This document shows positions 1-62,961 of a DNA stretch of 64,000 bases, piece by piece; the stretch's first letter is position 1; each line of letters opens with the position of its first letter. Source of the stretch: Morchella semilibera (taxonomy: Eukaryota > Ascomycota > Pezizomycetes > Pezizales > Morchellaceae); NCBI GenBank assembly GCA_009192285.1, contig CM018604.1:1240001-1304000 (forward strand). The letters run 5' to 3'. A program made the position numbers and the translations under genes. The notes under the pieces were generated by a model that saw only the letters and a list, made by a program, of their open reading frames with translations, was not told where the DNA came from and made no database searches.

Positions 1-3000
1 TTAGGTCTCAAACACCCAAAAGCTTTGGATCGAGCTCCCTATCACGTCATACACCTGAACTCTGACTGCTTGATTAATAGGGGTCAGAAATAATAGTGTT
101 GAAGAAGCAGTGTGATACGCTCCTACACTTTGGCCAACGAAGACCACCATGATAAGATAATGTAAACCTCGCATGATTTCGATATTAACAATGAATCATA
201 CTTACTGACCTGTCTTAGTAGTAGACTATAAGGCCGTTAATTAGGTGCCGATATATGCGTCTGTAATTACTACATGTATATATGTGTACATGTAGTACGA
301 CCACATGCCCACGTAAAACACCTCTATTTACATTATTATATGTAGATTTTGGAGAGAGTCTATATCCTATGGGCGGCTATCAGTCCAGCTAGACGTAATT
401 CTATAGTACAAGGTACCACCTTTATCAGTAATGAGGAGAGCCGAATATTGGTCCGGGATGGGAAGAACAACTCGATCATTACTTCTGGAGGAATTCGGGA
501 GAAGTGTTTAGCTATAGACAAGCATAAATAAGTTTTCAGCGCATGTTCTATAATCCCAGACTCATGAGGTTGGGTGTAAAGGACAACATAGAATCATGTA
601 ATATAATCCCATGTACCAATAAGACTTATTGTTTAACCTACACCGATTCATTGCTATAGCTTCGTTTCATTGCAATAGCTCCTAAAGATGCCCAAACCAC
701 AGGTTTCGAAGATCGATAGCATAGATACATTAAAAGATCGTTCTAGCTAGCATATGAGACGGCTAGAGATCCTACATGTATCATCACTGTATGTAGTTTT
801 ACCATGTATAGAGTGTCACTGCCCCTGTAGGTTCTTTTAAACAGATTATACTCTACCAGCCATTCATTTGATCACACGCGCACATATAAACCACGCCACG
901 GCCAATGATACGCACATGTACATACGTAAGAGCTCCTGCCATAGTACACATAGCATGCGCATACTAACTACATGATATGCTTCAAGTCACGCTGCAAGAA
1001 AGCAGCCAGTAATCGACGAAAGGTACGGTGCTACCAGAAAACTTACTACATGGATCATGCGAAGAATAACATGCCGCCATGTAATCCGTACAAAGGTTGG
1101 AGTGGAAACGCATGGCTCGCTATTCGATAGTAGGTAAGTTTGTATATATATCCTGTGGCATAAGAATTCTCATTGGTTATAATACCGGTCAAAAGCCTAC
1201 GGAACTAGTCTCTACTCGTATTTCCCCCGAAGTTTTTAAACTGGGCTGCTATTGCATGCCGTACAAAGTATGTTCACCAGCTTATCTCTTTTGCTGGTGA
1301 AGCTGCCAACATCTTAGGAGGCCGCATATTGCACCGTGCACCCGGGAATTCCCTCAGAAATACGCCGTCTGTACTTCTAAGACCTGGTTTATGGTTGTCA
1401 CGGTGGCGGAGGTAGCCCCTCAAAAGTTGGCAGCATTTAATCACCAGCGAAAGAGATAGGGATACAATAGCAGCCCAGTCCACAAACGTCAGAAGAAGAT
1501 GACGGTCGCGAGAGGGAAATTATACATATGCTAGATAATATGTCTGCTTACTCCTGTGTTGATCTGCAAGAAAAAAAGAGAATACGTGATCGGCTTTCGA
1601 TATGTGTGTTGCACAATCTCCATTTCAGTAGGGAAGGCCTCTGCCATCAATGTATGGCCACTGATTAATTTGAATAGCGTCGAATGGAATGGGAAAGCTT
1701 GAGATAGCCGCAAAAAGAAAGCAGGATGGTTAACAATATGCGTGTTAATAACCTAGATCCTGGATCATCATATATCCGGCCACTTAAGCCTCAGGCTCAA
1801 GTGATACAGATATATACAATGTATACATATACTTTGAAGCGACAAGAGCATTTGAATTGTTCATTGATTCAATAATACCATCCAATTAAATATCATATAT
1901 ACAAGCAAACAGTTGTTGCAGCTGTTAAAAAATCCTAAATGGGACAATGTCTGTGTTAGCAACGGATGAATATAACCGGCAGTTGACAGATATCTTATTT
2001 CGTGAGCTTAAGGAAACTACATGTACATGTATATTACTATGACGCAGGGCACTAAATACATGAATCCCATGACAGGCTGTTTATATGCTCCTAAATCCTT
2101 AATGTTAAGCCTAGATCTACATGTAATCTTTGCACACACGCGTGTACATGTACTTGTACATGAAGTACGTGTGCTAGGCGGCAGTTACATACATACATGT
2201 ACTTAGATGTATGTATGCATGTGTAACAGCTGTCTTCCTCTAAAGCACAGCTCAGATCTCTCAACTCCAAATCTTTAAAACACCCACAGTCAAACGAGAT
2301 GATTCATGTTCCCCACTACTGACTTTAACGGCTAACTGTTTATCCTTTGCACACTGCCAGGGCTCAGAACTCCGAGAAAAGCTCCCAATTCAATCATGAG
2401 ACGAACCGCTCTGTTTACTGTGGGGGTGCACTTCGCTAGGCACTAAGGCGTAATCATTGCTCAGAGGTAAAAAAACCTTCTTCCATCCCGGCTCAGAGCA
2501 GAGCCTATCATAATCCAAGTTCTTAGTATGCCCAGCTTAAACCCATACAGCCGCTACTCTTAATCGGCGTTTTACCACGATCATCTCCACGTCTTTATTT
2601 TCATTTCATAAACACAGCAGCATCCCTCCTGTTCCTTAACCAAATTCTCGCTCAAATAGCACCATACTACGTGCACTCCAGTTTTTCGCCGACCTGATAT
2701 TCAAAGGAACGAATTCTGGCCTCTCCTGGACGGTTTCAAAGTTGGCTCGCCCAAGTGATTTCTCATCACCTCATAAACCTCTTTTCTAGCTACTGTTATT
2801 GCTCTGCCGCAATATTGTCGTCGCCACGATCAACAATAAATAATCTATCCTGTATAGCAAGCCAAATTACTCCAACGCTATTAAGAGAGACTGTCGACCT
2901 TGTTTTGTAGTTTCCGACAAAAGAACTATACTAGGCAATTCTTGTTCAACATCAGATCCAGATCTAGGTTATAAGCCCCTGATGTTGAAAAGGTACGGAA

Positions 3001-3168
3001 ACATTATGCTGATTATCGAGAGCAGATTATCGAGAGGTCCTACTATCTGTGCATTGTTTGGAAGGCATCCAAACGGCAACTAGACGTAAGGTAACTGTGT
3101 TCTTAAGCCCCTCCCTGAGGCTAGAGCTAACTGATTATGTTCGTAATAGACCAGTAGCCTCCCCGCAG
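1..3168. other. gene-poor spacer
   Basis: No convincing gene is visible; the open frames are short and lack fungal-protein character. The stretch holds a foldback element at 1240-1479 and eight copies of TACATGTA, two of them overlapping at 2018-2031. The last 150 bases may contain an upstream exon and intron of the acidic-protein gene that follows. Confidence 0.6.
1240..1479. mobile_element. MITE-like foldback element
   Basis: A 15-base perfect terminal inverted repeat, ACTGGGCTGCTATTG at 1240-1254, pairs with CAATAGCAGCCCAGT at 1465-1479. Inside the ends the arms keep pairing imperfectly: TATCTCTTTTGCTGGTGA then GCTGCCAAC on the left match the reverse complement of the right side. The element is 240 bases and has no coding capacity. 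No clear target duplication is visible. It is most likely a non-autonomous DNA transposon copy; the superfamily is unknown. Confidence 0.7.
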
Positions 3169-3265
3169 AATAAGCAACATAATTCCATTTTGGATCTTGG
3201 CCTCGCTCTTTGTCTGCTTTTTATTCGGAAACATTTGTTGCAGCATATCTTTTTGCAACTCAGTA

Positions 3266-4114: not shown

Positions 4115-6308
4115 TCCGTTCAGCGCTCGCATGTTTATTATTTCATACTGTTTCCCTTGCAGTTGCAGATTAGCTCGCCTACCCTATTTTGTTATGTGAG
4201 GGTGTTAAATGTTAATTATAAGCTTATATCCTGTCGATAGGCTTTACTTTTCATAAGCGATCTCGGTGTCCGGTTTACAAGTGAGCGATGCTACCGATCT
4301 AGAGATCGTCTCTCGTTATCCTTCTCAAACAACTCCGTGTATGGCCTACGTCATTCTGCAGAATTGCCACGTTCCTCTTCCAGGTGCTTCTATGAAACTA
4401 CGCCTCCATTATCAGAATGGCCCTCGTTCAATTCTAGAATTAAAACCATCAAATTAGTCGTCCGCGCCTCGCTACTGCCTTCGCCCCAATTTTTATATTC
4501 AACCTGGGCCTTTATTTCGACGGTATGTATGATATTTTTAGGTGTATATTTTTGAGCGTCTTTCTGTACAGGCCTTTGGTTGTGGATCATTAGCGAGCCC
4601 TGTTTAATGGTGAACGGTCATTCGTCAACCGATGAATATATAGCTGGTTTTTGGGGCTGACTCCGCACCGAACCAGTTTCATAGTAGGTAACCAAGTGGA
4701 GGTTGTACCTACATATCGATCGATATTCTTACAGAACGCGTCGATCAGCCGATCCTTCACTCCAATTAATACCTTCAACGAAACAACCGATGTAGGTACC
4801 ATCAATCCGGAAGAATCATACTTAGTAGCCCCTAAGAATTTATAATTGATATTCGGTAAGTTTCCTAGTTTGCTTTGGTTATCGTGAGGTTTACCTGCTT
4901 TTCCAATGCTATTAGTTTAGGGTATATCAAGTTTTTATCTAGTATTTTATTGAGTCGAGCACGTACCACTATTCTCTTGCTGTATCCCTCAGGACAGGGA
5001 GGGGAGTATTGCTTATATACGATAATTTTTGCCACCTCCAAACCATGAGTCTAGCGACACTGACGGGCTTGGCTAGCTGATCTTAAACTCTCAGCTCAGA
5101 AAGTCTCGATCCTTTCAAGTTAGTACTTTCATTAGCGAAAACACACTGGAGCTGCCCCCCCCCCCCCCACTCTATTTCTAAAAATCAACACTTATAGGCT
5201 TCCGATATTAATACCTCTACATCAAGAGTCAATACGATAATATTCCTAGCTCTCCCCTTCAAGATAGATACGGGTATCCTAAGGACTTCTTACGTTGCGA
5301 TAATCTTTCCAGGGTGTAATCGACTAACATTTTAGAGGCCCTTCTGACTGGTTATGGGTGCTGGAGGATGATTCTTTCGTTAATAGGCATCCATCCTCAC
5401 TCAAGCCTTGAACATAACCGAAACATGTCCTCTGAGTCAGTATCGGTGTCTAAGCCAATAGACGTTTTCAGTTGGTAGTTATTCTTAAAGTATCAATTAC
5501 GCTCAGTTAAAAATCATGAACGGTCCCTATCGAAATATTTGGTGCTAAAACTGGTTCCCGTAATGCTTCGGCGCGTGTAACGAACTTAACCTAGGGTTTT
5601 TGAGCTATGTATTATCACTAAAAGCTCAGCCAGTGAGAAGCTCTTGTTAAGCCCGGGGGGAGATTCAATTCACCTAGTGAGTACATACCTTGAAATATTT
5701 CAACCAAGATGTATCAACTAATGAAGGTCATCGCTACCTTTTAATGTCGAGTCACTCGTTAGGTATCTTTCTCGTATAATCTTGTGGGACTAGATAGCGA
5801 CCAAGAGTATTATTGAACTCAACTCCATAAATCCCTTATCCGTGATGAAACATAGATAAGGCAGGGGATATCAGAGGACCCTGTAGATGGGCCGCAGCTC
5901 ATAATTAAGGCTCGAACATGATAATTCCGCCCGAAGAGCAATCGATCTCTATACTTACTCAACTACATGTACATACATAACACACATAAAGGTTAAAAGC
6001 AGGTACTGTACTCACATCTTACATGTATGATGCAACTACATGTACGTATAAGTATGATGTAGTTTGTAGGTTTCAGTAACGTAAATCATATCAGAAACTG
6101 ACACATCACTTCGAATGTCCCCGGTTTAGTGCCTATTCTCATATATACTCTCTACATAGGCACCTGATAGCACATGGGTATGGCTACACAGCTACAATAT
6201 TTACGTCATCAACACCCCTATTGCTTACAGTACCAACCAGTACAGGTAGTTGTTACTCGGTGCTTATTTTACACTTCGTCTTTTCTTATCGAACAAGCTT
6301 TGCCGTCC
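4115..6308. other. spacer without recognisable gene
   Basis: I see only short open frames that look random. There is a poly-C tract at about 5155-5168 and three TACATGTA copies at 5963-6043, shortly before the next gene. Confidence 0.55.
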
Positions 6309-8341: not shown

Positions 8342-11300
8342 GGTAACTGCCGGTTCTCCAAATTTTACACTGCAAGAAAAGAAAGAAACGAGGAAATGAT
8401 AGAGAGATCCTGACACAGTGAGGCTTTTTTATCCTATTATCTGAAAGCTTGATCCCAGGACTTGTGTATGTTGTGAAACCAAGGAGGGGGGGGGGGGGAA
8501 CGGGAAGTTTTGTCTGGGAAGTCATGTGTCTGTTCGTGTTTCAATTTTTGATTTTTAGCTATTAGACTTGTCGGTGGTGGTGAGGAACAATTCATACATA
8601 ATGTTTTCTTGACGCGTTAACGTGCATATACGTTAAGGTTTTTAATTGGTCATAGGCCCTCGGCTGTCCTACATGTATGTATTGTCTAGAATTGTTTGTT
8701 GTAGTGAGGGCGGACCCTGGTGAAATCCATGACCCCGCTACCAGGTTATCCTGTGGTGTACCTACTCAACTACTCTACATGTAGTATGGAGTACTTACTT
8801 CTGCTAACTTACCTCGCGGTAGTCGTCATACTACTCTACATGCCACCATAACACAACCACTATAGTTTTTGCAACAAGACTAGTGGAACGACGAGCAGGG
8901 GTTCTAGATTCAATTGTCAGATTGACTACAATCTGCAGCTTCGTCGTTGTTTGCGGCTCGTCATTGCTCCCGAAGCAACTGTAGTTTAGAGGCTTGCAGG
9001 TCACCAACCACCACACATATAGTATTGTATGTATATACGGTTTTTATTAGATGAATGGTGATTGTTAACAAAAAGATTTAGGTTAGGCCAATATTGTCGC
9101 TTTTATGGTTAAAAAAATACCGTTTTGTAGGCCTAAGTCAGGCCTTGACTCGTGTGATCAAGGGTCCCCCATCATACGAATTTTTTAGTGATAGCATGGA
9201 TGCAAATATATGTACCTACAATACTGAGTAATGTGGTTGCAAGAACCAGCATAATCCCTGCTACTAATCGTTCGAACTACGATACGCATATTTCTTTTCG
9301 ATTATCCGTCTATTTCTATCAGAGTCTATTGCGCCTTTTCCAATGTTCTTTTTTGTATTCCTTTGAAAAAAAAAAAACCTTTATACAAGGTATATAGTTC
9401 AGCCGCAGGTGTTGTACTTTTACTGAGTAAATACATCTCCAACAAAAATTGTGCATTGATGTAATAGGCGGATCTCGAATCTTGCCACGTACAGCGACCT
9501 CATCTCAATTATGCAATAAATTACTTAACAGCCTCATCCCAATTGTCAAAAACTTAGTAGCTGATTCTTAATGAAACAGCTATATCTGATATCCAACGCC
9601 TTTGCTGTGCCTCTGATCGATTGATCTGAAACAGTTCTTCGTTCTACCGGGCTGAAGATTATGTACCCACTCTACCTGTAATACGTCCATGTATGTACTA
9701 CCGTCGTTGTTCGTAATACATATACATGTAGTTTTGTTTCCTTGAGAATTCCCCAGGGAGAAAAAGCAAAAATTGGCGGCTTTTGCTAACGAATCTTGTT
9801 ATCTCGCTCCTATCAAATGATTGATCTCCTATACAAACTCGACCCTCTATTATAGGGTCAGCATTGACAGCTTAACGATATAGAGCACAAATACGATCCA
9901 CGGATCCTGGATGTTTTAAATAAAACATGATAGCTCGTTTTGTTCTATGGTCAGCTCAGATTATCCTGTTTGAGTCCATATGCAAGTTGGGCCAGGCTTG
10001 ACAATCGAAATTTCAAGTATTGACCCACAGATTCAGTATATTTTGGAGCCGTCTGTCAAGTTTGTCGAGGACCGGTAGTTCATTATTTATTAACTGCCGA
10101 ATTTTTGCTTTTCCAACCAGGAATGGCAATCCATGCCAGCTGTTGCAGCTTTAACTGTTAGATTCCAAGTGGTTTGTATACATGTGGAGAACGCAACTTA
10201 CCATATATATTTTGCCACTTTGGGGGGCGGAGAAACGAGATAAATCCTTTCTTGGAAGTTGAATCTTTCAATTAACCTTCCTCATGCGGTTTTTTCTATA
10301 CTATGATTCACCGTATTGCTTTTCGCTAGGGTTAGTAGCATTTAGTTAGCGTCGTGTCGCTAAAATTGCAGGCTACGGCACTTAGTACCTGACATGCAGT
10401 ACATACCAGCAGCAAGGGACAGCGGACATGGTCGTGTTGTCAGACTCGTATTCATAGCCTCGTAGGGTAGCTGCCTCAAAAAGTGTCTTCCCCCTCTTAA
10501 TGTGCTGGTCAACACACACCATAGGCATAATGCATATTCCAATCTATCCATCCGGTTTTCGGGTAGCCGAAACAGTAACACCTTAACACAACCTACGATC
10601 ATATTTTGCGAGCCACGGTACAAACGGCCGTGCCCATCATAATATCAAGTCATCAGCCACTTGAGCCATTATTATATGGCCATTTTAATAGGATCTAGAT
10701 GGCCCATTACCCCGGCTCGGCGCATGTATGACGAAAGTGATTGTCCAACTAAGTCACCGAGTATTGAAAGTGGTCTGTCCACAAGCTAACCCTTCAGGTG
10801 CTAACTCGGTGACAACACCCGTTCGTAGAATATAATATAAATAAAGCCGGTTCCCCTCAAAGGTGATGCTTACACAGAAAATGACGACTTGAAAGAGATA
10901 TTTCAACGGTACAGTCCACAACCTTGTTTTGTAACAAGCGAAGGGTGGCGGAGGATGGAATGCCGGATAGGATGATGACCCTGAAAAAGGCATGCATGCT
11001 TGATAGTCGATGGGTTTTGATGAGCGGCAGGAGGTGTAAATTATTGGATATTGGAAGTAGTTCGGGTCCATATATTTCCTTGGAGGTTGGGCTCCTTAGG
11101 AAGGTCCTTTCTAGCACCCTTTGGAGCCATGCGAATGGCAGGTGGGAGACCTTTGGGGCATTGGTGCCGATATAGTCCTCTTACCTCCTAGCCTATGGCC
11201 TTTCTCGTTTCGCTTTCTAGATACATCTAGGGATATCGGTTGAGAAAGTTACGACCTTTTTATTCTCCTGTGGACCTTAATGGCCACAGGTTGTCGGTGG

Positions 11301-14390: not shown

Positions 14391-14423
<33 letters not shown>
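14391..14423 (+). repeat. poly-A tract, 33 bases
   Basis: An uninterrupted run of 33 adenines. It extends two unrelated open frames by encoding lysines, which should not be taken as genes. It could be the tail of a retroposed sequence, but nothing upstream is recognisable, so simple slippage is the safer reading. Confidence 0.9.
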
Positions 14424-14429
<6 letters not shown>

Positions 14430-17309
14430 TAGCACCCTTGCCCATCCATGTATCGGAACGGATACCCCAGCTTACGCATCGGTTGAGGGCCATCTACACA
14501 GAGCTAGAAAGATTTATCACGTACCACTGGTGGATCTTCAACCTACTCAAAGACAAGCCACCAGCCCCCCCATCACCCCGAAAAGTACCAACGAGCATCT
14601 TTTCTTATTTTCATACGCCAGGGAGGGAAACTAGCGCTGTTCCTTAACTGAATTCATGAAAGACCTCAATCCAACGGCTACCCGCAACATTCTGTTGGCC
14701 TGTCCAAATGTCCGAAGACCTTCTAGAAACCGCTCATCTCAGTGAGGGGTTTGAGACAGAGATGCAGTAGTGGAACCCTCAGAAATCTCTAGCCTCCATG
14801 CTCGATTCTCTCCCCACTTCCGTTATTTAGAATACATTCTCCTTCCCCTAATTTCTCCATCTACAGAGTGGTTCTCATCAAAGTTAAAAGTGCGGGGAGT
14901 GCACATTTTGTTACACAGCCTCAAGACACCAGCTACATCCAACGCGTAACCGAACGATAGTGTTAAGCCAGGGAACATCCTTAATATTGGCGGCGGTAGT
15001 GGCATTGTAGTATTGACGTTCCTCAAGGCTAAACGTAAAAGGAAACACCATCCAATGCCTGCTTAATGTCCGAAGCCCTCGCATTTCTATCTACGGTTCT
15101 GTGTGGAAGTAAAAAAAAGGAAGGAAGAAAAAAAAGAAGATCACCGGACAAGCCGAAGCCGCAAGTAGGCCATAGGAACTTGAGAAAGAGCCCCAATTAC
15201 CCTTTCGAAATTTCCTATACTTGTGATAGGTACATATGTAAGTGTTTGCTTCCATGCACCCGGTACATGTGTTCTGGGGTTTAAGATACGCTCCGGTTAC
15301 AATCCCCTGTTAGAGATGATACATACTCATGATAGAGGTCCCGATCACTTTCAAATTTGGCCAGCGATGATCGAGTTTATGTCAATAACATCATAAGAGT
15401 CTCATAATACCTTACCACCAGACCTTTCTCCGCTCAACCTAATCTCACCTCGATGTTGCCCATTTACGTGTTTACCAGGCCACGTAACCTAAGCCTCATA
15501 GGCTTATACTCTTCTCCATCATGTGTATTGTACATGTAGGTTCATGTTTTCCTAGGCCCCCTTTGACTCCCTTTCTTATTCATATAAGAAACGCTTGCAT
15601 GTTAACAGGCCATGCGCGCCGTCAATATCAAGTACATGTAAGTAAGTACAAGTATCTAACGCATACTTTAATCATTAGTAAATTATAAACTTTAATTAGA
15701 ATTTTCAGGTACAAGATAAGATCGGCTTTACCCAGCCCACTGGTATGTCCTCAAGTGAATACATGTATACATGTATCTACATGTATATACACCTCATATC
15801 ACTCGGAATATAAGGTACATGTACTTTCAGGGAGGCATTGCGTTGCTGGCCAAACGACGCGTGTGACGATAGGCTCCCCATACCGTAGATTATCACAGAT
15901 GCTGGGGTTGTGAAAGGCGGCTGGCAAGATCACCGATCATCCGTTAATATCCTCCCCCATATGCATCTAGTGAGGTAAACTCACTCACATACCCACACCC
16001 CCCCCCCCTTTCCCCGCCGCCCCACCCCAATACAACATATGCACCACTGATAATATGTATGTACCGGCTAGAATAGAGTGACCCGCTGCTTGACATCTGG
16101 TGGATGTTAACAAATACGAAGACGTTGCAGTACATGCGCGTCCTATAATGATTATAAGAAACTGGGATGTATCTTCCCACATTATATCGATCAGCACTGG
16201 CCTCTTCCAAAAATGAACCTGAGTTTATGAGAATTGCAGCCGTTCAACCAATAAGATGAGCAGGACTTTTTGTTGACTTTCTGTCCAACTCGCACAGCTA
16301 AAAAAATAGAGTACTCTAGTCTTCTCAATAAAACTACATGTAGTATCGACCCCTGCTCGGCTAACCTAGGGCGAGCAGATATGTCACGTCACCAATCATG
16401 AATGATTTCGGTTTCCTTGCCTTTTTTATCAATAAAATACTTGGCTTGAGAATTATTGAACTACACCAGCCAAGCGTGTCACGGTCGTCATATCTGTGTG
16501 TACTTACATGTAGTGTTATAAGAAAAATGCTTCAGTTTAAGGTGCCCTAGTGCTCACGTACGCTACATTATATACAAGCGACCTGCTAAATTGAATCAAC
16601 AGGATATAGAAGCAGCAAAGGTGACCATCTAAAGGTAACCAGGGATGTATCTAATGAGAGCTTGTGTATATGAAATCTACCATAGCTCTTTGCGGTGAAT
16701 CAAGATCCTCTGGACTCTCCACAATGTCCCAGCCTACTTAGGCCCCAGCCCCTGCCGCAGATTGAACTTATCAGAGCTGGCAGGCTCCTAAGAGACGTCA
16801 ACCAAGTGGAGTGGGCTTATCTACCTCAAGTATCTTAAGGGGATGTGACTAGGGACATTATTTGTTATCCTTACCATCATTAGATTAATAATTGCAGGCC
16901 CGTGAAGTCTAGTAACGTATAGAAATAAGAGCTGTTATCTGCTATTCTAGTAATCGCCAACTCTCGATATTTCTCGGTAGCATTATATATTAATATCGTA
17001 ATCTATATAGTATAAAACTCAATATAATACCTATATCATCGATTTAGCAAAAAGCATTTGTGGTCAAAACTCAAGGGTTTGACCAGGCATGCCATCCGGG
17101 AATGTCTTGTATGAGCCAGCGATCTCCCCCAGTGTAAAACACTTTCTTTGCTTTTTTTCTGCTTTTCTTTTAGAGCGAATGAGCGAGCTGTGTAACTACA
17201 TGTACGCATGCAGTCGAACGTTTTGACCTCTTTAATTAATGACTACATACATCTACATCTACCTGAACTAAAGCTTTACGCTTTATGTTGAGAAGACGTA
17301 CTTATAGAG

Positions 17310-17450
17310 TACTGTCGTTCCGGGGTGATACTGGGTGTTGACGGATCCCACAAAAGAGAAACAGTCAAGTCCGCTTAATTTGTTCTTATTGGCCAAAAAG
17401 CCCCTGTCCGTCAACACCCAGTATCCGTCAATACCCAGTGAGTGACAGTA
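17310..17450. mobile_element. small foldback element, DNA-transposon-like
   Basis: A perfect 19-base inverted repeat, GATACTGGGTGTTGACGGA at 17327-17345 and its complement at 17407-17425, lies inside shorter outer arms GTACTGTC (17310-17317) and GACAGTAC (17443-17450). A degenerate extra copy of the arm (CCGTCAATACCCAGT) follows the right inner arm. The unit is about 141 bases and non-coding. The nested arm copies are typical of a small MITE. Confidence 0.65.
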
Positions 17451-18709
17451 CACGAGACATGAACGTATGTACAAAAATCCCCTTGTCCATAACCAGGCTC
17501 TTCTTGCCCACCCCGACTCGAGCGCCAAGGTGACAAGTTTACCCTACCCCATCGATAGCCCTGCCTGCTACCCTACTGTTCTATGATCCAAAGTTATGCA
17601 AGACTTCACTGGACCCAGGGGTGCGGGCGAGCCGTGTATGAGGAGAAAACCGAGGATATTTCCCTCAGATTTACATATAGCCAACCCTTCTTTTCTTCTC
17701 TTCTTTGGCTGTTCAAGTCTCACACCGCCTTCCAATCGCTTGTATGACGAGAAGGCGTGTCCCAAGTATTTGTGGACATCTATATAAATAAACTAATATA
17801 ATACGTGGTAGATATCCCTGTGAGCTCGAGCATGATATGGAGGGGTGGGGAGGGCGACAATGGAAACGTCCTCCAACCACAAGCATACATGTCATTTTTT
17901 TTTTTTTATTTTTTTCAACTTCTTCATCCCATTCAGCTATTATGAATCAATAGTCAGATATCTAGCTACATGTATAGCAACTTACCCATTGACTCTCGGA
18001 CCTCGATGTCGTCCATCCTGCGTACACAAATTTTAGATAACTTTAAGGCGAATATCATGTACCAAATCTAAGGGAGGTTAGATACATGTACTAACATGTA
18101 TGTATATCGGATGATACATGTACTTTACATGAATGTACAACCTACATCATATACATACAAGGATATCCCTGCCTCTACTCTGAGCCTTCCCCTCCATCTT
18201 TCCTTCTATACATTTTCTAGTCCCCGCGCCAATCAAGTATCGTACCACTAGAGTACATGTAGATAGGGTATCGTAAAATTAGCTTAAAGCTGTCAGCATG
18301 GTCAGAGGTGTTCGTTTCAAGTTGACGTTTCTGGTAAGTTCTTTAAGCGTTTCTGTGAAATGACCCCCACGCCTTCCTGCGCTTAGGATGGGATGGGATG
18401 AGGGGGATGGGATGGATGGGATGGTTGCCGCTTCTAGGCGTCGCTTGCGTGCGTATCGCCTAACGGCGGTAACGTGGCAGCATACAGCCAATTACGTGTA
18501 GCCCGGGGGTCCTTAAAGTGATGCAACGAGCTCAATATTCTGGTGTAGCGACCACCATCAAAGCTAGATCCAGTCAATTTTTTCCATTTGTATTTCCATT
18601 TACTATTAGCTCCGCTTGATACTTCCCAGCTTTTGGGCATGGTGGCCAGTAGCTGCGAAATTAGTGTTTTTTGTTGCCGTTGCATCACTAGAGTACCCAC
18701 ATGATTTAC

Positions 18710-18845
18710 CTACATGTACATGTAGGTACATGCAAGTACTTCGCGCTAAGTAGAGTACTGTGCTAAGTACTGTGCGCACTGTAGGTACATGTTGAACACA
18801 TGTACTTCTTACATGTAGGTACATGTACATGTAGTTACATACGCG
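18710..18845. repeat. dense TACATGTA cluster
   Basis: Five copies of the palindrome TACATGTA, two pairs overlapping as TACATGTACATGTA, lie with several near-matches (GGTACATG, CACATGTAC, GTACTGTG) in about 130 bases. The stretch can fold into several alternative hairpins. It is the densest cluster of the motif in the window. Confidence 0.8.
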
Positions 18846-21800
18846 GTAGATCATTAGGTACTTCATGATAGCAACGGAATACCTACTACTCTGATGCATG
18901 TCGCCCTATTGCTCTTCTACTTACTATCTCCTAGCCAATCCGATGGCCTTGAGTCAGTACAAATATTCCTGCTTGATCTGCTACTAGATACGTCTAATAC
19001 TCTACTCTCTAACAAGCAATTGTAAGTGAGACAGGATCTGACCACATTTTAGTTACCAGCTTGGGTTAGTCAAATGCCAATCTACTTTGTTGCGAACCTC
19101 TCACACGTCAATTTTTTTGTTTCTTATCAATTTTTTTTTTTTTTCCCTCAAGGAAGTTATTACGCAATTTATCTAGAGAACGTCACACTACCCGCATATC
19201 ACTGCTTGACCAATGATGTACCAGATTGAGTCCTGCAACGCATATGATGATGTCTCACCTCACTTCTCGAAGCAGGTAACATCCAATGTTCCCTCCTGCA
19301 CAGGATAGCACAATAAGCTACAGTACTGTACTGTATCTTCCCCCCTCTTCCATTCCTCGTTCAAACTTTCCAGAAATGTGAAATCTCCGAGCTCCAATCA
19401 ATCCACTCCCCGACGCCCGCGCCCTCCCCTGTCTATCCCAATGTCCTATGTCCGTTGTAAAGCGGAGTTGAATTTGGTTTGGCTTCATGCCCATTGATAT
19501 ATCATGTTATGACTGTGTTCGATGTGGGAAGCCGCTCGGACGTGTCTATAAAACCCGTTCTTCTGCGGGATTGATACCCCCCCCCTCCTCTCTCTCTCCC
19601 CGGCACCCCTCTCCGTCCGTTAAGACCTATGCAGATCATATACCCCCAGGCCTGATACGCAGCAGAGAAAAACAACACCTAGACGGAATGAAACTAGGGC
19701 GCTGGAGTCTTGACGGGCCTCATGACCAGTCGACCGCCGCTCCTGATCAACGCATTTTTTTTTATCCCCCGGTGACGAACAGATTTAGAGCACAACCCGT
19801 GCCCTTTCCTGGATGACAACCATTAAAGGGCACTTTCTTGCACTATCACCACGGAGAATTCCATATAAAGCACTTAAGCTATGAACCCTGTTCAGAAAAG
19901 TGAAAAAATCCTGTCTTGCACGTCCTTTGCAAGACATGTCGCTAGTTATCACTCTTGGTGATCAGTGATCAGGCCACCATGATCTGATGGGATTCGGGAC
20001 GGACGGGGTTCGAAAAAAAAAAGTAAACAGAAAATGCCAGGTGCCTCCGTTCCATGTGCGCATCCGATATGAAACATGTTTACCAGGCATTCTGGTTACC
20101 CGTGCGTCATGGAGAAACAAGGCACACAGAGATTACCGAGGAGCACACCTGCGGTGCATAAGGTAGGAAGTTTGTTTACTTGTACCTGGGTTGTACAGAT
20201 CGCTGTGGCTGAGCATAGGTGGAGTGCGAAGCGTGCCAGTATGCATGTGAGAGGGGAACTGATGGATTCAACGTCAATGAACTAATGAGGCCGGCATTGC
20301 GTGCCCTTAATGATCAATGACGTTGTGAGTCATAGTAGGTCCTAATCAAATGTACTAGATCAATTGTCATAGCCTTCGGACTAGATACAATTACATGTAA
20401 TGATGTAAACAAAAAAAAAATGTGCTAGATCATGGGTGGTCACTCGGTATTATGTTTCTTGACCTAACTACTATTGATCGATTGATTGATAACTCATGTT
20501 AGAAGTCCGAGAAAAAGCATCTAGTGCACATGTGGTACTGCTAAACATGTATACAAACCCCCTTCCTCCAAATATCTATTTATGTTAGCTTCATATATTG
20601 TATATATACATGTACTTACATGTAGGTACATACTTCCAAGTATAGTAGAATGTGTATCCCAAACGACGAGTAGGAACATAGCGCTCCCCGAACTCTTTCA
20701 CTACTCCGCAATAACGCTCTTATTCCCAAATCTCCTCATCAATAATCTTATTCAAACCAACTTCAATGATTCCGTTATAACCAAACACAAGGTAGACTAC
20801 GTGTACCCTTCCTGCTTGACATTATTATATCAATATATCGTGAGGTAGGTCTAATATGAGCTAGTGTAAGTATATTAAGCTGAGATTCCCGTCGCGTTAA
20901 ACGGACTAGTAGGAAATTGTCAAATAAGAAACGGGGCTACTTTAACAACACCCGAGTCTACTTGGAAGCGGAATAAAGAGATATCTTTATTAGTGTAATT
21001 GACACTTGCTTTTCAACCTCCCATCAACCAATCCCTGGAACCTCGGCAGCAGTGGTTTAACGAGTGATATCTAGTGATCGATCATACATATAACATTTAC
21101 CCCACACACGCAGCATGGGTAAGGAGGGTGGGACGACCTATAGTTGACTATTTATGCGTAAATATTCGGAAAGTTCCTTTTAGATATAGACCACCCAACC
21201 ACTCACCAGGACACCCCCGGACGGTTGATATAATAACAAGATTCACGTTTCAACCGACTTCCATACCCCTTCTCAGTAAATCAAGATTAACTGTCCGGGT
21301 GAGGGAGTCGTCTAAATATGTCGGTGATGGTAGTCAGTGTTGGTGGTGACCTACTTTATTAACATGTGAGCATACCCACTTGGAGAACAGATCGCCTAGT
21401 AACTTTGGTCCGATTCTAGAATATTCGGCCAGGTCTCGCTGCTACAAGTATCTAGATCCTAGCCTTCATATTCCGATTATGAAACAGATGAGTTCGTAGT
21501 AGTTGGCTTAATTAGTGACAGGCCATATATATGCAGTTTAATGATCTACATATGTTGTAGTTATGTGAATTTTGCGCCATGGACCTGCTACTTTTTTTCG
21601 TTCCAGATTTTAAGAGTATCTTGAACCAAGATCGGGTATGGTTAGTAGCGGGGGATCGCTACTGATCCGAGGATCTAGGATTTGTTTCCCCACTTATCCT
21701 CACACACCTTCCTGGCGTTACACCGTACGATTCACCGTTTAATACTTCACTTTAAGCTACATCGTTTAGCACTTTCGACCGTTTTCAGTGGTATTTGCCA

Positions 21801-43700: not shown

Positions 43701-44056
43701 TGACATCCACTTTCGCATTCGAATTCTCCCCATACAGCACTCCACAAACACCTCAATTCCGATACGTAATTTGGGCATTTACATAAATACTTAATTCGAT
43801 ACTACCATAATACCACACAATATCCCACACACTACCCCTCCTCCCCCCCCCCCCCCCAGTAGCTCCGCATAAATACGACTCTGTTCCTTCTTTGCCTTGC
43901 GTTGCCGCCACCACCAGATCTGTCAACCAACCTCCCCCAACCATTCACCAGCTCAGGGACCGTCGCTTTACCGGTACAACTAGTGCTGCTACAATAAAAC
44001 TTTCAGCCCAGCTACAATAAACATACGGCGTCAGTGGCGTCATAACAGCCTTCTCA

Positions 44057-45524: not shown

Positions 45525-48500
45525 TGTATTCTGACTTGTCTTTTGTCTCTTTATATTGTGAAGAGTATATTGCTCTCATGTTTTTTATTACCCGTTTCTC
45601 CCCCCTTTTTTGCGCCGTGGCCTGCTTTTATCTATACCTTACAATTCTAACTTCCAACCTTTATCATTTATTCGCTTCTCTCCACCCCTCCTATGGCTCT
45701 CTTTTCGTCTTTGCCGTTTCTTTGTTGTCTTGTGTTGTTTGTTTGCTGCATGTCTGAAACGCTGGGCTCTGGGTTTGGTTGGGGGGTTTTTTTTTTCCTC
45801 TTTTTTTCCTCCTCTTTTCTTTGAATGTTGGGGCATGGGGCGCGGAAATGGGAAATCAGGTACCTACGAATAAGCATAATGTTGCAGGAAATGGATGGGA
45901 CGGAAAGGAATGGGAAGGAAAACCGCGGGAGCTCTGAGTCCAGCTGGCGGCACCATGGAGGGGAGGGGGGGGTACCTCTAGTGGTGTGGAGGGAGGGAGA
46001 GGTTTGTGGGTGGGCGGGGTGGGGGGAGTATGTGGGGAGTTATTGGGACGAAACACATATCTCGGTGTAATTGGATTATAACAGTTTTTTGTGATTTTCA
46101 GTTGCTTTTTTCTTCACATTGAGTTTTTAGGGGGGACTTTTTTTTTCTTGTTTCTTTTTTTTTTTTTTTTTTTTGTTATTACTTCTATTTCTCACCGAGT
46201 CCGGGGGCGTTGCAGCTCGGACTGTTAATACGTAGATCATGATCAAGAGTACGTACGTTACTTGAAGTTAGTAGTTGGAGCGAGAGGGGGAGGATGTTGA
46301 CGCCATATAGATATATATGTTGTATAACTGAGCTCTCGCCGGTCTTCTTCCCGTCTTGTTTTCATTTGTCGTACATATCCACAATCTGCTTTCGGGTCTA
46401 GCTTTCTGGGTGTTATTGGACTATTGATGTATCTTGCTTGCAGCTGGGCCGCAGGTTAGTTAGGCTTGTATGTACGAATTGAAACATCTAAACCAAATCA
46501 CATCGCGTCACAAACCAGCACTCGTCTAGCCATATCATAACATCAATGGGCATACTACGTACCGGTGTCGGGGTAAAATCTGCTGTAATTTAAACAGTGA
46601 TCTGAACAGTCGCAACCACGGGCGCCCGTACGTACAATACATACCAAGGCAGTGGAATGTAAATACGCAGACATGGGACGAGGCGAGGCGATAGGTCTGC
46701 CTGCGGTCAGGCCACCACTAGATATCATCATCATCATAGGTGGTGGGTGGGGTGATATGGTTCCTGGCGCGCCTACCTTTTTATGCTCGGACCTCGTCTG
46801 TTTTGTGGGATTATCAAAAACCACAGACGCTGTCGTCGTCCAAACTGCCCCCCCCCCCCCGCTCTGTCTGTCTGTCAACCACAGATAAGCTCGAGCGAGC
46901 GGTAGGAGGAATTAAGGCGACATCACTAACGTGACGGCTAGCTGAGCGCGAGAGTTGAGTTGCCCCTCGAGACACGATCGACAGGGCAGGGCGTGTAAAT
47001 CCGGGGTAAGGGGGAAGGGGGAAGGGGGGAAGGGGGGAGGGGGGAGGGAGGAGGAGGCATGCACACTCTGTTACCCCCTGATGTAAAATGTATGTAGTTA
47101 TCGATATCACCCCCTTAATACTCATCGTATATCTATTCAGATGCTGGATTCTCGTATGTAGTCGAGTTAGGTTACACAGACCGTCGGTTGGCTACGAACG
47201 AATACCTACCTGCCCTAATCAAGCGCCGTCTAGTGCTCTAGAGCTACATGAATGTTATACAAGTAGAGTACATGTATATACATGCACTTAAGCTGTACGG
47301 CAATATACTTACATGCAATCTCCCTAGGAGATGCGGTGATCCGCCGCGCCCGGCGGTGATCGCCGCGGGGTTTCCCCTTTTGGGTATGAGTGTGGGTGGG
47401 GGTGTGTGGGGGGGCGATTGAGTCTGTGGAGAGGGGGGGGGGTGCGGGAGGGTGGCCACCCATCGGTGGTGAAGCCGAAGGGGGCGAGTGATGGGTTGTG
47501 ATGAGATTAATTGTGGAGAGGTACTTCGTTAGGGAGGGGATCATTCATGAGCGTAGAGGGGAGTGACACCCGCCTGCATAAAATGTAGATGCTATATACT
47601 ACGCTGTAACCATCACGCACCTCTAGGTGTGACGACTCGTATGGTTTATAATCTCTTTACAATTATTTAATCAGTTACAAACTACAGTGAAAAGGAGGAG
47701 GGGTAGCGGATCGAAGGTGTTGATGGGTCGGTAGACTTTAATTCAGAGAAGATCAAAAGACACACTTAAGACCTCACTCCCCCAGTGAATCCCGCCCGGG
47801 TCATGAGATATGATTCGGACCACGCGGCTCAGGTCGTTGGTAAATCATTTATTGCATGCAGCCCACAAGGCTATGGCAAACACCCTCCCCCCTCTTTCCC
47901 CCCCTCGTCCCCTCCTCTTCTAATACAAGTACAAATATTAGAAATAAGGAATAAAACCAAGTAACTAAATAAAACAGAGCAGTCTTTGATCTTCTGTGTA
48001 TTCGCATCCGTAGTACGCCCGAGTCGTGTCACCTGTGGCTGACGCAGAAAGGTTAGTTGGCTTGCGGCTGGCACGGGGCAGCTTCAGGCAGCTCCAGAAC
48101 AGTGGATAAAAGTCTGGCCACGAGTCTTCGCGGGGATGGCATGATAGCCCGTACCCCCCAGGCTGAATCTATGTGCCCTCTGATGAGAGGGATAAATCGA
48201 TACGAGTAGATAAGTCCGAATAGTATATATTCTCGCCACGGGAGAGCAGTTCGCAACCAGGGAAGGAAAATTCTCTCTCGATTAGTGATTGCGTCTTTGG
48301 TTAAGAGAGGGAACATCTCATGCCTCCCCCCCCCCCCCAAGCTCTTCGGGCGGACGATCACCATAGGCCAAAAATCCACTAGCCAGTAGTCTCATAGCAC
48401 GCCGTTTAGTGGCCGTCTTTCTGAGGCCCCAATATCCGTTGTAACGAGGAGGACCAATAATCAGCTTTTGTAGGCCAGTACCCTGAAAGTGTAGTTTAGG

Positions 48501-54500: not shown

Positions 54501-55649
54501 GAAACCCCAGCCAACATACTTTATGGCCAGCTGGACCAAGCAGCGTACCGTGGCAAGAGTAGCCTAGGCAGATATACGCACTATATTACCCTGCTCTCGA
54601 TAATGGAAATTCTGGTGTCGCGATGCGACGTCGTCTATTCCCTAACAACACTCTTACATCTTTTAGGACGCTACATGTAAGTAACTACATGTATAGCTAC
54701 ATTGAGTGCCGATTGTGTATATTGTTACGGTGTTATTACCTTTATCGATAATATACATGTCCTACCAATATATCGGATATCCGCAGGTTAGTATAATAAG
54801 TTGAACCGATAAAGGCAGGCCTAAGTACATGCACGTTACTCGTATCGTGTAATAATGGGATATAAGGTTATAAAAGTGAGACCACTAAATTTTGTGGTAC
54901 GTGAGCTTTCTCCATCTTTATCAGAATCCGAGTGATAGCTTATGGTTTGATCCGCTCTGGAGTATTTAATTTATGTCAGACAAACCTTATAAGCTAAATA
55001 TGAACGGATTAAGAAGTGGGTGTTCGGCCATGCCTGATATATAAGATTATAGAAATCTGATATTGGGGTTTTTTTCCCCTTCTTTTGTTCTCGATTTTTA
55101 TTGTTTGTGATTATATATCGTATGTTCCATGAGTTGGGTTATTGTCAAGACCTGTACGGACCCAAACACTTATTTCTAGTATTCGGGAGAACGTCGACAA
55201 CAGGCTATCTTGCAGTACTTCAGCTAGGATAATACTCTTTTGTTAAGCGTTTGGAAAAACTATTCTATGCCGTACAAACACCCACGTATATGCAACACTA
55301 GAGTTACTTGCCCTTAAAAGAACGTCATGTGTTAAGTTTCTCAAATGATCATAGCACGTTCAAAATGTTTCTGATTGGCTTGTCAAATCCCAAATAGCCG
55401 GCCTGTACGCACTCCAGAATACTATGGCATCTTCTTCATAGGTTAAAATTTACAGAGCCACAGAACCGCATAGACTAATATTAGACCTCCTTATTCATGT
55501 CGACAGCAGCTCAATCTTTAGGCAGTTATCTTTGCTCTAACTCTAAAGCTATAGCTAGCTATCAGCAGCTCTAGCATCCACAACATATTATCAGCACCAC
55601 CTTTTTGCAGAGAAACGTCCTCCGAACCGCAGCTCCTAGAACCATAATC
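51560..55649. other. spacer without recognisable gene
   Basis: The first 40 bases upstream of the CBM48 gene are CT-rich when read on the minus strand, fitting its promoter or leader. Beyond that I see only short frames: 52506-52742 and 52702-52959 on the minus strand are open but unassignable. There are two TACATGTA copies near 54672-54694. Confidence 0.5.
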
Positions 55650-56081: not shown

Positions 56082-57732
56082 AGGTTCGGTATATATACGG
56101 TGGGTGATAGAGCGAGACCAACTAGCTCGGATGATAATCGGGCGCTAGCTTCTTTAAGAGTTAGAGCATTAACTAGAAACTTTAGATGCAGAGCACACAG
56201 CAGCGTATGTGGCATTAAGTGGAGGAGTGGATTTTTGAACCTGTAATAAAATTCAATGCTTCAAGGCGCTCAATTAAAAATTATCTTGACGTTTTTTTTT
56301 TAAAAGAAAAATTTCCTTTATCATGATCATCGATCGCCTCGTTTAATTTGACCCCGAATTAATATTGCTAGGCACCTTATATCACTCGCCCAAGGGCATC
56401 AAACTTCACAACTACATGTACTTGAGATAGATGTCCCCACGCGCGGGGGGTGGTTGGCCGGGTGGTCTGTAATATACAGCTGGTTTAGTTGTCTACATGG
56501 TTGACCGAGGCTGGATGATCAATATTTTGACTTTACGTACGGTGTCAATCAAGTTTTATGCTCCCCATTCGTATTTTTTTTTTAAGCGCATAAGCTCTAC
56601 TATTCCATAGGATTATAGGCTTAACAATCTTTTATTCTTATAGAGCTTAGCTATATGTAGTGATTGAAAATTTGGAAAGCCTTGTAAGAGCCACATCACA
56701 GATTCTCACTCGGCAAATCTAGCTGCGCGTGGGGGTTGTTGTTACTTTTCACCCTCACTCTACTCATATGCTTTCTTTTTCGACTGGTAAGAAGTATAGT
56801 AATTTAAAAAGGAGATACCTATCTTTCTAGCTCTAGGCTTGAGGGGGAAGCCTCCGGGATTATGAAATTGTGAGCTGGTATGTATTCCGAGCCGTAATGA
56901 ACCGGCCCGATTTTAGATCCTTCAGAGAGTTCCATATGAAGTAGGAAGTAATACATGATATGACAACAGGCGTAGTCTGGGTAGGGAAGAAGGATTAACA
57001 TGGGTTAGGGTTCAGAGCACCATATGTCTGGGGGGCCTTGCCAAGCATTACAAACTGGGCTGGTTAAAGATAGAGACAAGCTTTTCGGGGAACAAGCCAG
57101 AGTCTCTTTGGCGTAAGAACCCTGCATACATACGAGAGCATTGTAGAGTGCTATAGATCCATGGCTGCTTTAATTTATATGCAAACAAGGAAGCTGTTTT
57201 TTCCTTTCGGTTCCTCTTTCTGGGCACCTGATAGAAAGCATTCCTCCAACGCCCCAACGTTTGAAGTAATGTTGGACTTTAAAGCTTTGGCTGTTCTAGA
57301 TCTGTGTGGGGAGAGTTCTGCTTTTAGGGTTGTATATTTTCAGCCGTAGTGGCGCAGCTCCTAGGATCCTGCAGTATTGGAATGTGAGGATGGGATAAAT
57401 ATAGAGTTATTAGGTATATAATCATGATTTAGAAGCTGTGGGTATATTCTCCATGCCTAGCAACTGTGAATCATCGATACAGGTGATACGGTTATAATTA
57501 TCAGCTCCTGCGCCAGGTTGTCTCGTAGGCTGCCATCGTTGGTGAGTGCAGTAGTTCACGTTAATTAGTCCTGAAGACGCATTATAGAACTTGGCGTCCA
57601 CTGTCACCTTGTGGGGGAATGTAATATGTCTGACAAAGACATCTCTCATCTCAAGAATAACACACCGGCAGATTACACAGCATACCAAGCTTGATGCTAC
57701 ATACTCTACAGGCATCAAAAAAAAAAATCCAT

Positions 57733-57780
<48 letters not shown>

Positions 57781-58962: not shown

Positions 58963-61073
58963 GATTTATTACAACGCTCGAATTTGCCCAGGAGAGGGGG
59001 AAATATCTTGGAGGTGAGGATGCAGCTGGGCGTTGAAGCGGCCCTCGCACATTATTTTCGTTTTTCGTTTTTCCTTTTTGCGGGATATAATCTATGGGTG
59101 TGGGGTTATATTGGGGCGTTCTAAGGTTTCTTTCTAGCGTTTTCTATTATTCGTGGGGGCGATAAGTTTCAAATACCTCTAGACATGGGCTTTCTTTATA
59201 TCAGCTTTGCGGCGGAATAAATTCCTTTTGTCTAAAGACAAGGTCAATGAGGGGCTTTGATGTTACAGAAGTAGGGTGAAAGTGGTACTATCATGCATGA
59301 TATGATTGATCGATGAGTAATAAAACGTGGGGGTAGGGTGTCTGATAAACAGCGGCCTCTAAAGAAAGTTCCGAAAGGTTCAATAGCAGAGATTATTACC
59401 GAATAACGAGCAGACTGGGACAATACATGTGCTTACCACAAGTGCAAGACTGGTTGAAACAAACATGGTTAGGGATGTTAATATTGCGTCTTATTAGCGG
59501 TTAATTTCTCGAATATCAATTTGAGACCTTGCGGATAGTGTAGTCGACCAACCGCACAGCTCGGATACACTGAGTGCTACTTGCGTATATCTGGTAGGGG
59601 CTATCTCTAGGGTGAATTCATACATGACCCCGAGGACGAAAAAGTACTTTTGTTTGTTTTATGAACAGATTTTGTCATAGGGTAGGCCGCGAAGCTCAGC
59701 GCAATGAATCCACATTATATCCCTGATTGCCAATATACAGGTGTTTTAACCCAGCAAAATTCATGGTTTTGATACTTGCTCGGCGTCGATACAAGTAGTT
59801 GGGGTTAACTCTAGCAGCTGCCACTCACCCGTCCTTGTAGTTCCGTCCTACACTTAAAAGTTGGGCAAGTAGTAGAGCGCAGGCTCTCGCCCAGATCAGA
59901 TCGATCTACGTCATCCTATAAGATATAGTCGGCAGGGCTTGTTATAAGAGCACCTTCTATAAGAGTAATTTCTCTATAAGGGTACACTCTTTGGTCCGCT
60001 TTCTCCTGTTTGTGTGTTTGGTAGTATCTCTATATAAGGGAATCTGACCATAAGGGTACCAAATTTCGATCCTGACAGTTACATCGCTGGTATAAATGAA
60101 GTCGCGAAAGTATACTTGATACAGGTTCTTCAGGGTAACAGTGCATATATATTGTAGCTATCACCTTCACGCTCAGCTCATTGGGCCGGAGGTTTTCAAT
60201 AATAACATGCATGTACTATGTATGTAGGTATGTACATGTCAGTACTATGTGCGCTTTTGATTTGGTTTTGTTGCAGCTGCAATTGGTCAGCATTTACACT
60301 TCATCCGCGATGTTATAAGGAATTAACTGCTCAAGAGTAGGTACTTCATACGAACTCTTGTATATAGAATTGGGCCGGGAGTTGGCCATGGACCTGAATG
60401 CACGTCAGGGTATTTCATCTCGCCTTGCGCCACCTAATATATCACCGATACTATTATATCTGTTCAAGATTTGTTTTCATGAATTCAGTGCACCTATCAA
60501 ACTTTAAAGGCGTATAAATTGTCTCGGGAAGCCGTCGAAGAGGCGCGGAAAGGGTACGTACGGTATCCGCGACGAGTGATTTCATCATCTTAGGGATTTA
60601 CTAGATTGCCGGAATTAAAATCATGATGGCTTGAAGATGCATACATGTAGGTACCTCCAGTTGCACCTACTACTGTAAGGGGTGGAGAAATTTGGTTACA
60701 GATCCCCCCCATTCATATGTACTGTAATCCACCTCCGCCGAGCTGCCGTAAAAACTGCAGGAGTATTAACTAAAGTGTGCGTATACATAAGCACTGGTAG
60801 TTGCAGTTGAGCGGTATAAGCTTTGTATTAGATTGTAGCTGATCGGATTAACCCTAACGACTAATCATAAAATCTAGCGAGAAGAGCGGGCGAGTAGCCC
60901 GCTTAAACCTTAATTTTGTTGATGTTCGACCCCTTTTTTGTTTCATGCTTTTTTGCTATTGGGTATTGGGCGTGTGCGGGGGTTATATAAACTATAGCGG
61001 AATGTCTTTTGTATGGATAGCGGTGAAAAACAGGCAACAAAATAATCAACTAATCAAGTAGACTTCACATGTA

Positions 61074-61175
61074 CCATAGATACTCGAAAAATTCGCTAGC
61101 GCCCTTTACACTAAAAAGTACTCAAAGTGCTGATTTTTTGGACAACAACGCTAGCGAATTAATTTTATGGTATGT
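61074..61175. mobile_element. minimal foldback element
   Basis: A perfect 12-base inverted repeat, AATTCGCTAGCG at 61090-61101 and CGCTAGCGAATT at 61149-61160, with a 47-base spacer. Outside it GTACCATA on the left and TATGGTATGTAC on the right extend the pairing imperfectly, giving a unit of about 100 bases. Probably a tiny MITE. Confidence 0.55.
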
Positions 61176-62961
61176 ACTACATAGGTAAATACATTCTTAA
61201 GCTTAAGGAGTAGGTCAACTACATAACTACATGTAACTAAAGAGTTTTCGGGAAGGATGTACATTTGAGTGATAAATCATGAAGAATGACATCATCTGAA
61301 AAAGGAATTTAATTCCTTGTATGCATGACTTCGGGGTTCTTACCAATAAAGACTTTGGGTGCGTTGGGATCACGTACCTGCGCGAGATCGGCTTTGCGAG
61401 CCGGCTGGGATTTTACGACCCCCTACTAAACGACCAAGCACACGATGAAAGGATTTGTCTTAGCCTGGCAGGTTGCCCGGGCCCCTATACCCAGGGCCCA
61501 ATTTAAAGCAGATCAGTCTCAGTTTCATTGTGGGGTCAGCAAATCCTATGACCGACTTCTAATGATCTATCAAATGCACGTGGCTGGATAATTTAAAATA
61601 TCACGGAACAACAGCATTAATATCGAAAGTACATACTAATGTACATTTTCGGAATATATATATACTAAACGTTATATAGACTTAGGAAAGATGCCCAGGC
61701 TTCTATACTCACCCCAAGTATATATATATATACTGATAGCTCTTTTCAGCTCTTTTACTCAACCTCCTTCTGATAAAGACACAGTCCTATCTGTTTCGTT
61801 GGGTAGTGAAAAGTGAACACTTACTGACCGATGATCAAATCGTTGCCCCTGGGGTCCTTTATGTTAACTACTCTCGTTTTGTTATGTTATAGGTTTAATG
61901 TATATCAGAAACGGGTGCGTTGGGGTCTAAATAATTAACAATTGGGCCCGTCGAACTTAGACTCTGGTGCTTATATTCAATACAGTAAACAGACAATGAT
62001 CTCAAATAACGGTTTAGACATACTGTGAGTCAGGAAAATAGATTTGTTTATATCTAGCGAGGAATGCCGGTCCGTGGCGTTCGATCAGGTGGGGACAAGC
62101 TAGATTCTTGCTTTTCTACGAAAACCGCCCGAACGGGCCAATCCACGAATGGTAAATCATCTAAACCTGAAAGGTTGTCACTAAATCACTTGCTACTCAA
62201 TGCACTTCGCTTGCTCATGATAGCTCTTTCCGGTAGTTCTACCATCCTCGATCCTTTGATTCATCATGATCAGTCACTCAATGCTCCTAAATTGAATAAA
62301 AAAAGACCTTACATACATGCGGAGTTAGGAACCTGGCTGAGCGGCTATTGTCATTGGCATCTAACAAAGAAATGGTATGTTGTCGTGAAATGGAGTGTAG
62401 CTAAGACCAATCTCATATCCCCTTTTCTGTCTCTAGCTGATTTGCTATTTTCCGTAGGGCTAGTAGGGCTACCACAGCAACATGCGCTGCTATCGAGTTC
62501 CGGTATCTCGGGGTAGGGGCGATCGCCTTCCAGGGGGACCTATCAAAACAATGCCACGTTTAGGTCGCTCGAAAAAAAGGAGGGATTAAACCTAGACACT
62601 GCCAAGTGGTGTGCCGAATGATTTAGTACTAGATTTGCGACCATGCACATCAGCCTCAGATAACCGGGGGTTTCTTTAATGCAATGCTTGCCTTGGGTTT
62701 CCCACGAACCATAAAGCTGGCGGGAAATCAATGCTATGTAGGTAGAGAGTACTGGGTACATAGATCTCCTAGAAATCTTAAGTTCAAAAGTATTGAGTCA
62801 ATTAGGTGACTTGATCCGTGTCTTTGATCGTTGGTTGACCCGGATAACCTATTACGATTTGATCTGATCACATTAGTTGGGTAGTTGCTTTTTTTATCCC
62901 TTCGGGTGCTGTTGATATCAAATTCTGCGGGTTAGTTTATGAGACATGGGATCTCTATGGT

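Follow-up and report, generated by a model that had tools for sequence, protein, structure and literature searches.

Why should one palindromic word of eight letters, TACATGTA, recur throughout a stretch of fungal DNA? The stretch in question, hereafter the window, comprises 64,000 nucleotides of Morchella semilibera (GenBank assembly GCA_009192285.1, contig CM018604.1, positions 1,240,001 to 1,304,000 of the forward strand), and a first-pass annotation of it had proposed a binding site for an architectural or silencing protein, a templated mutation process or the relic of a very small repeat family. As judged from the sequence, TACATGTA is very probably the excision footprint of Tc1/mariner-type transposons with CA ends and of their non-autonomous relatives.

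Abundance and placement of the word

Exact matching located 56 copies of TACATGTA in the window, the first at 271 and the last at 61228, whereas base composition predicts 1.46, an order-1 model 1.17 and an order-3 model 3.6. The annotation's figures of about 55 copies and a 40-fold excess thus hold for the window (56/1.46 = 38), and its split at 31 kb was reproduced exactly, with 43 copies before and 13 beyond that point. No other palindromic 8-mer in the window exceeded 11 copies. A genome-wide count against expectation, which the annotation had named as a check, gave 22,206 copies in 56.76 Mb (23 contigs), corresponding to 21 times the expectation from base composition and 33 times that from an order-1 (dinucleotide) model, both expectations being scaled up from 19 sampled 10-kb pieces; the count is therefore not near expectation. 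With 56 copies per 64 kb, as opposed to 22,206 per 56.76 Mb, the window has about 2.2 times the average density of the genome. Directly to its left, a 10-kb piece (L026) holds 23 further copies.

With words of period 1-3 set aside, TACATGTA was the most enriched 8-mer in a 183-kb non-coding sample (136 copies versus 3.6 expected, 38-fold), and when such words were kept in the 19 random pieces it still ranked first by fold enrichment among words with 10 or more occurrences (21.5-fold). The palindrome of reversed letters, ATGTACAT, has 3,723 copies in the genome as against 22,206, and 79 further palindromes containing six or more A/T letters showed a median excess of 1.02, which rules out the general excess of AT-rich palindromes that the annotation had named as a refuting outcome. 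Other words enriched in the non-coding sample were CGAGTGAT/ATCACTCG (10-fold), GTACGTAC (9.9-fold), GCTCGAGC (9.8-fold) and TAGAGTA (2.4-fold), some of which may belong to terminal repeats or represent scars of another kind. The window is also rich in long C and G homopolymers, with 37 occurrences of CCCCCCCC when overlaps are counted.

With regard to placement, we examined 140 copies from 284 kb (the window and 22 fetched 10-kb pieces), with coding segments predicted by a hexamer model whose training set was the long open frames of the same 284 kb. Only 2 of these copies lay in predicted coding segments, yet such segments make up 31.7% of the bases; in the window none of the 56 did so. The earlier impression that the copies sit outside credible exons is therefore borne out.

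Gains of six letters at TA

Self-comparison of the sampled DNA yielded five aligned comparisons at three sites, and copies of five families of miniature elements present in the window (A, D, E, F and G) were therefore fetched. The alignments comprised 22 copies of family A, 16 of D (a 17th, L025, was barely alignable and was excluded), 18 of E, 11 of F and 21 of G, in total 88 copies and 21,454 8-mers. Exact TACATGTA occurred 25 times in the aligned regions, 19 times at family A ends and six times internally (five in E and one in G). Four of the six internal copies fell in insertion columns, as against 724 of the 21,454 8-mers (3.4%; p = 2e-5, five families), indicating that TACATGTA tends to arise by insertion. 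In the family E copy L048, a TA has gained exactly 6 bp. The plain TA stands in 12 of the 17 other copies; of the remaining five, L049 has TT, L054 CA and the window copy TATATA, while L060 and L022 lack the stretch. In L047, also of family E, CATGTA and one T were gained at a TA that 16 of the 17 others retain. The short gain at a plain TA, as in a Tc1/mariner footprint, is thus clean in L048 and accompanied by one extra T in L047. Moreover, a tandem duplicate outside the five families (L003) carries a 9-bp gain containing CATGTA, and in the family A copy L023 a TA that is plain in most aligned copies has become TATATGTA, one transition away from TACATGTA.

Words one transition away from TACATGTA were enriched 2.3-4.5-fold in the non-coding sample, whereas transversion neighbours stood at 0.7-1.6-fold. 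Since transition neighbours are enriched and transversion neighbours hardly so, the scars appear to decay freely. The number of one-mismatch copies relative to exact ones suggests a divergence of several percent per base, a rough figure that is inflated by microsatellite words.

These results bear on the idea that TACATGTA is a recognition site maintained by selection for an architectural, silencing or regulatory protein, an idea that its palindromic form, non-coding placement, clustering and genome-wide distribution would suit. The copies that can be traced are mostly insertions without counterpart in sister copies, which does not support the protein site of the first-pass annotation, and the transition-biased neighbours look like free decay rather than selection.

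They also bear on the possibility that the copies are not excision scars but the termini of miniature elements still in place, family A for example. Intact relatives of family A read TA-CATGTACCCCGGGG...GGGGTACATG-TA, so that TACATGTA stands at each end, and such ends make up 19 of the 25 exact matches within the alignments. In the genome, however, only 61 of the 22,206 copies continue without a mismatch into the terminal repeat of family A (decayed ends uncounted). When the flanks of the 140 sampled copies were compared in pairs, 33 pairs matched at 13 or more of 18 positions (control, 2), and only 3 of the 33 were free of another copy of the motif. The flank comparison and the count of family A ends together rule out one ordinary longer repeat, a further alternative of the annotation. 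Among 277 site pairs within 1.5 kb of each other, the best inward inverted match was 13/16 and lay inside one cluster (18711-18826), and paired ends of one miniature element were rejected on this ground. We consider it most improbable that ends of resident elements explain the word.

The families used as test beds lie on the forward strand of the window. Family A, a miniature inverted-repeat element, occupies 18497-18698 and has at least 34 matching places in the genome (39 of 265 candidates were scored, duplicate contigs being counted in), 20 copies of which were fetched and aligned. The other four are TA-inserted miniature elements: G at 25529-25867, with 20 other copies aligned; D at 28198-28392, with ends TCCCTTGG; F at 28400-28559, with ends CAGCCATACCTCGC in its relatives; and E at 28581-28775, the family with five internal TACATGTA among 18 copies. 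D, F and E lie nearly end to end (28198-28775). With a further one at 17309-17450, the window holds at least six miniature inverted-repeat families, most of them flanked by TA. Additional 5-8 bp insertions of other letters, some at or near TA, were seen in L038 (family A) and in L074 and L076 (family D); they are perhaps scars of other element families.

Target sites, resident transposons and overlapping copies

If TACATGTA is a footprint, its letters should be those of transposon ends and its surroundings those of transposon targets. Among the 16 possible words of the form TA-XY-Y'X'-TA, the one with CATG was enriched 38-fold and TATATATA 11-fold, and the other 14 at most 2.8-fold; TATATATA is also a microsatellite-like word, and apart from it only the word with CATG was strongly enriched. 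The 3-nt scar form TACAGTA/TACTGTA was enriched 1.6-fold in the non-coding sample. Outside the TA, a T occupied position +3 in 149 of 255 flanks of solo TACATGTA, compared with 32% at ordinary non-coding TAs, and, when nested copies were counted in, a TA occupied +3/+4 in 90 of 279 flanks, compared with 9.4% at all sampled TAs. The ends of elements beginning with CA showed the +3 T in 24 of 38 cases (family A 13/18, family F 3/12, and 8/8 for the individual elements L087, L088, L089 and L110), whereas the other TA-inserted families showed it in 16 of 64 (D 4/20, E 5/15, G 7/29). CA-ended elements thus differed from D, E and G (p = 3e-4), as did solo TACATGTA (p = 2e-6), while solo TACATGTA and CA-ended elements did not differ (p = 0.60); the preference is common to scar sites and CA-ended elements. 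With family F placed together with D, E and G the counts became 21/26 versus 19/76. An outer flank preference equal to that at insertion sites of CA-ended transposons is a further point against a protein site, which we regard as having hardly any likelihood.

Profile searches of the genome gave 69 matches to DDE_3 and 96 to DDE_1, duplicate contigs counted in. The contig pairs C9/C10, C12/C13 and C21/C22 share transposase and repeat hits at near-equal coordinates, often with equal scores, and seem to be duplicates, possibly allelic. Five elements were fetched (L087, L088, L089, L110 and L111). L087 and L088 are 98% identical, and the terminal inverted repeats of L087, L088 and L089 start with CAGCGG or CAGCAC/CAGCGC immediately inside the TA duplications. 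L087 and L089 contain stop-free open frames of 361 and 378 aa, the predicted proteins match DDE_3 and HTH_Tnp_Tc3_2, and among solved structures the Sleeping Beauty transposase is the best match to the L087 protein (E 1e-34). By their DDE_3 domain, Tc3-type helix-turn-helix, terminal inverted repeats and TA duplication, L087 and L089 qualify as predicted Tc1/mariner transposons. The pogo-type element L110 starts with CAGTCG inside its TA duplication and has the +3 T on both sides, unlike family F, whose ends we read as probably resembling those of L110; L111 starts with ACGCC. A 162-bp CA-ended element with a TA duplication was also found within the family E copy L059. The outermost CA and TG of the resident elements are the letters gained in TACATGTA.

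Tc1/mariner transposases are described, in a passage of PMC2170065, as making their 5' cuts two or three bases inside the element ends and their 3' cuts exactly at the ends, and a passage of PMC3878927 attributes a characteristic footprint to repair of the resulting 2-3 nt overhang. In the mechanism that we propose, an element with CA...TG ends would insert at a TA and duplicate it (TA-CAG...CTG-TA), and the transposase would later cut the element out two bases inside its 5' ends. Given such ends and such a 2-nt stagger, joining by the host would produce TA-CA-TG-TA, that is TACATGTA, with a net gain of 6 bp (CATGTA). The scars would tend to last outside exons and decay by transitions, and each would supply two fresh TAs for the next insertion, so that the overlapping form TACATGTACATGTA would result. 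Which element family stands behind most scars we can only infer; Tc1-like and pogo-like elements may both be candidates for most copies. Among the ideas of the first-pass annotation, the relic of a very small repeat family came nearest, in that the copies would indeed be relics, of transposon excision, and not of a repeat that itself spread. The templated mutation process was half right, as the 6-bp insertion at TA seems to be filled from the ends of the excised element.

Overlapping copies allowed a quantitative comparison with re-insertion. Genome-wide, units of one, two and three overlapping copies numbered 22,206, 501 and 23, respectively. The observed ratio of pairs to singles (501/22,206 = 0.0226) is close to the approximately 0.021 predicted by re-insertion (0.0143 x 1.5), where 0.0143 is the scar rate per TA (0.0076) multiplied by context weights (0.97 x 1.93), the TAs of scars being assumed equal to other TAs, and 1.5 is the clustering factor among the 19 sampled pieces. 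The right end of L110 (approximately 2749-2763) abuts the outer TA of a TACATGTA (read inward, ...ttacatgta followed by CAGTCG), an arrangement to be expected under re-insertion. The same 501 pairs and 23 triplets could also be produced by a slipping hexanucleotide microsatellite, (TACATG)n, or by templated 6-bp insertion at TA without transposons, and the triplets, at about twice the number predicted by re-insertion, favour such a process. However, long tandem arrays with a slow fall-off were not seen among the overlapping units; we took the steep series 22,206, 501 and 23 as unlike a slipping repeat and rejected microsatellite slippage on it. Insertion without transposons, for its part, predicts neither the CA/TG of element ends nor the common +3 T preference. 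Taken together, slippage or transposon-free insertion appears very unlikely.

In the window, where all positions were obtained by exact match, overlapping pairs lie at 2018-2031 (TACATGTACATGTA, starts 2018 and 2024), which a second insertion, into a TA of a previous scar, would explain, and at 18711-18724 (18711, 18717). Clusters of four and three occupy 15760-15823 (15760, 15768, 15778, 15816) and 18810-18833 (18810, 18820, 18826). Looser groups of three are found at 2118-2201 (2118, 2145, 2194), 5964-6044 (5964, 6020, 6037) and 17967-18122 (17967, 18083, 18115), and groups of two at 271-294 (271, 287), 8670-8783 (8670, 8776), 15531-15640 (15531, 15633), 16335-16512 (16335, 16505), 20607-20624 (20607, 20617) and 54672-54693 (54672, 54686). 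Single copies are located at 773-780, 9723-9730, 17197-17204, 18254-18261, 20392-20399, 22165-22172, 23495-23502, 26072-26079, 27917-27924, 28571-28578 (between elements F and E), 30169-30176, 30501-30508, 31972-31979, 34679-34686, 36928-36935, 40400-40407, 41301-41308, 41748-41755, 43238-43245, 47269-47276, 56413-56420, 60642-60649 and 61228-61235. One more, at 28619-28626, lies inside element E.

Several observations weigh against an origin by excision. The copy at 28619 is a 6-bp insertion without counterpart in the 17 other aligned copies, and its target is CA in 16 of the 17 relatives and AA in one, never TA. In L094 TACATGTA lies within an 18-bp insertion and is not a clean 6-bp gain; two of the six internal copies (L059 and L061) adjoin deletions and are hence ambiguous; and a copy in a coding-like 2.6-kb repeat (L010:1262) arose by substitution with unchanged length. 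Most of the 40 insertions of 3-30 bp listed in the five families consist of other letters, and among the loci compared within this genome none was found in all three states (empty TA, element and scar). With regard to the +3 T, the 102 element ends pooled gave 40/102, which is not significant (p = 0.07), the split between CA-ended elements and the rest was chosen after the counts were known, and family F, though CA-ended, lacks the preference (3/12). The ratio of triplets to pairs (23/501 = 0.046) is about double that of the simple re-insertion model. Finally, living CA-ended elements look few beside 22,206 scars.

Known footprints and the proposed history of excision

A close parallel is the excision footprint of Tc1 of Caenorhabditis elegans (Plasterk 1991). 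That footprint reportedly consists of the same eight letters, a TA duplication with two bases from each CA...TG end. The present genome has a DDE_3 transposase with a Tc3-type DNA-binding domain. It differs from the nematode case in that the word is present in 22,206 copies, as the top non-simple word of the sampled non-coding DNA, and in a fungus, an assignment with which the AIM3/BBC1 and ELO domains found here agree. A palindromic octamer in large genome-wide excess is also seen in HIP1, the highly iterated palindrome of cyanobacteria. An insertion origin at TA is seen for TACATGTA, however, and to our knowledge none has been described for HIP1.

Sleeping Beauty and Frog Prince belong to the same superfamily and likewise leave a short scar between TA duplications, but theirs, in the passage cited, is a 3-nt scar, C(A/T)GTA (PMC3878927), and the corresponding TACAGTA/TACTGTA is barely enriched here. 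Scars of grass Stowaway elements, which like the present ones would stem from TA-inserting miniature elements, and of other DNA transposons have been inferred from empty versus filled sites, according to the cited parts of PMC1925063 and PMC4423477. In rice, 86 of 94 excisions from several superfamilies were imperfect, with deletion, filler DNA or both (cited part of PMC4423477). Here, in contrast, one uniform product dominates, although a Tc1-type scar might count as filler in the rice scheme. Because the rice excisions mostly carried deletions or filler, a uniform product on such a scale is worth noting.

A literature search for TACATGTA returned, as judged by titles only, no paper dealing with excision scars or with the genome of a fungus. 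Searches on transposon footprints gave no description of such a genome-wide scar word, and those on footprints of Fusarium impala/mimp and on palindromic octamers in filamentous fungi found nothing. The type of scar is already known; its scale, which puts it first among the words of the genomic DNA sampled, appears to be new.

A more far-reaching reading, which we put forward tentatively and consider rather unlikely as a whole, is that CA-ended Tc1-type elements were excised from this genome over a long period, repeatedly and in a nearly uniform way, such that scars far outnumber survivors, and that this excision was possibly favoured by the host or linked to the sexual cycle. If true, TACATGTA would serve as a molecular tally of lost transposons that reinforces itself, because every scar adds two target TAs. 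Cut-and-paste transposons are usually counted by their remaining copies, and those that have departed easily escape notice. With a uniform scar at about 22,000 places, excisions could be counted, mapped and dated across a whole genome, and target preference could be measured without living insertions. The scars also raise the question of whether exons are avoided by selection or by targeting. For motif finders they carry a caution: a word may be more enriched than any other in a genome and yet be a by-product of mutation and not a binding site.

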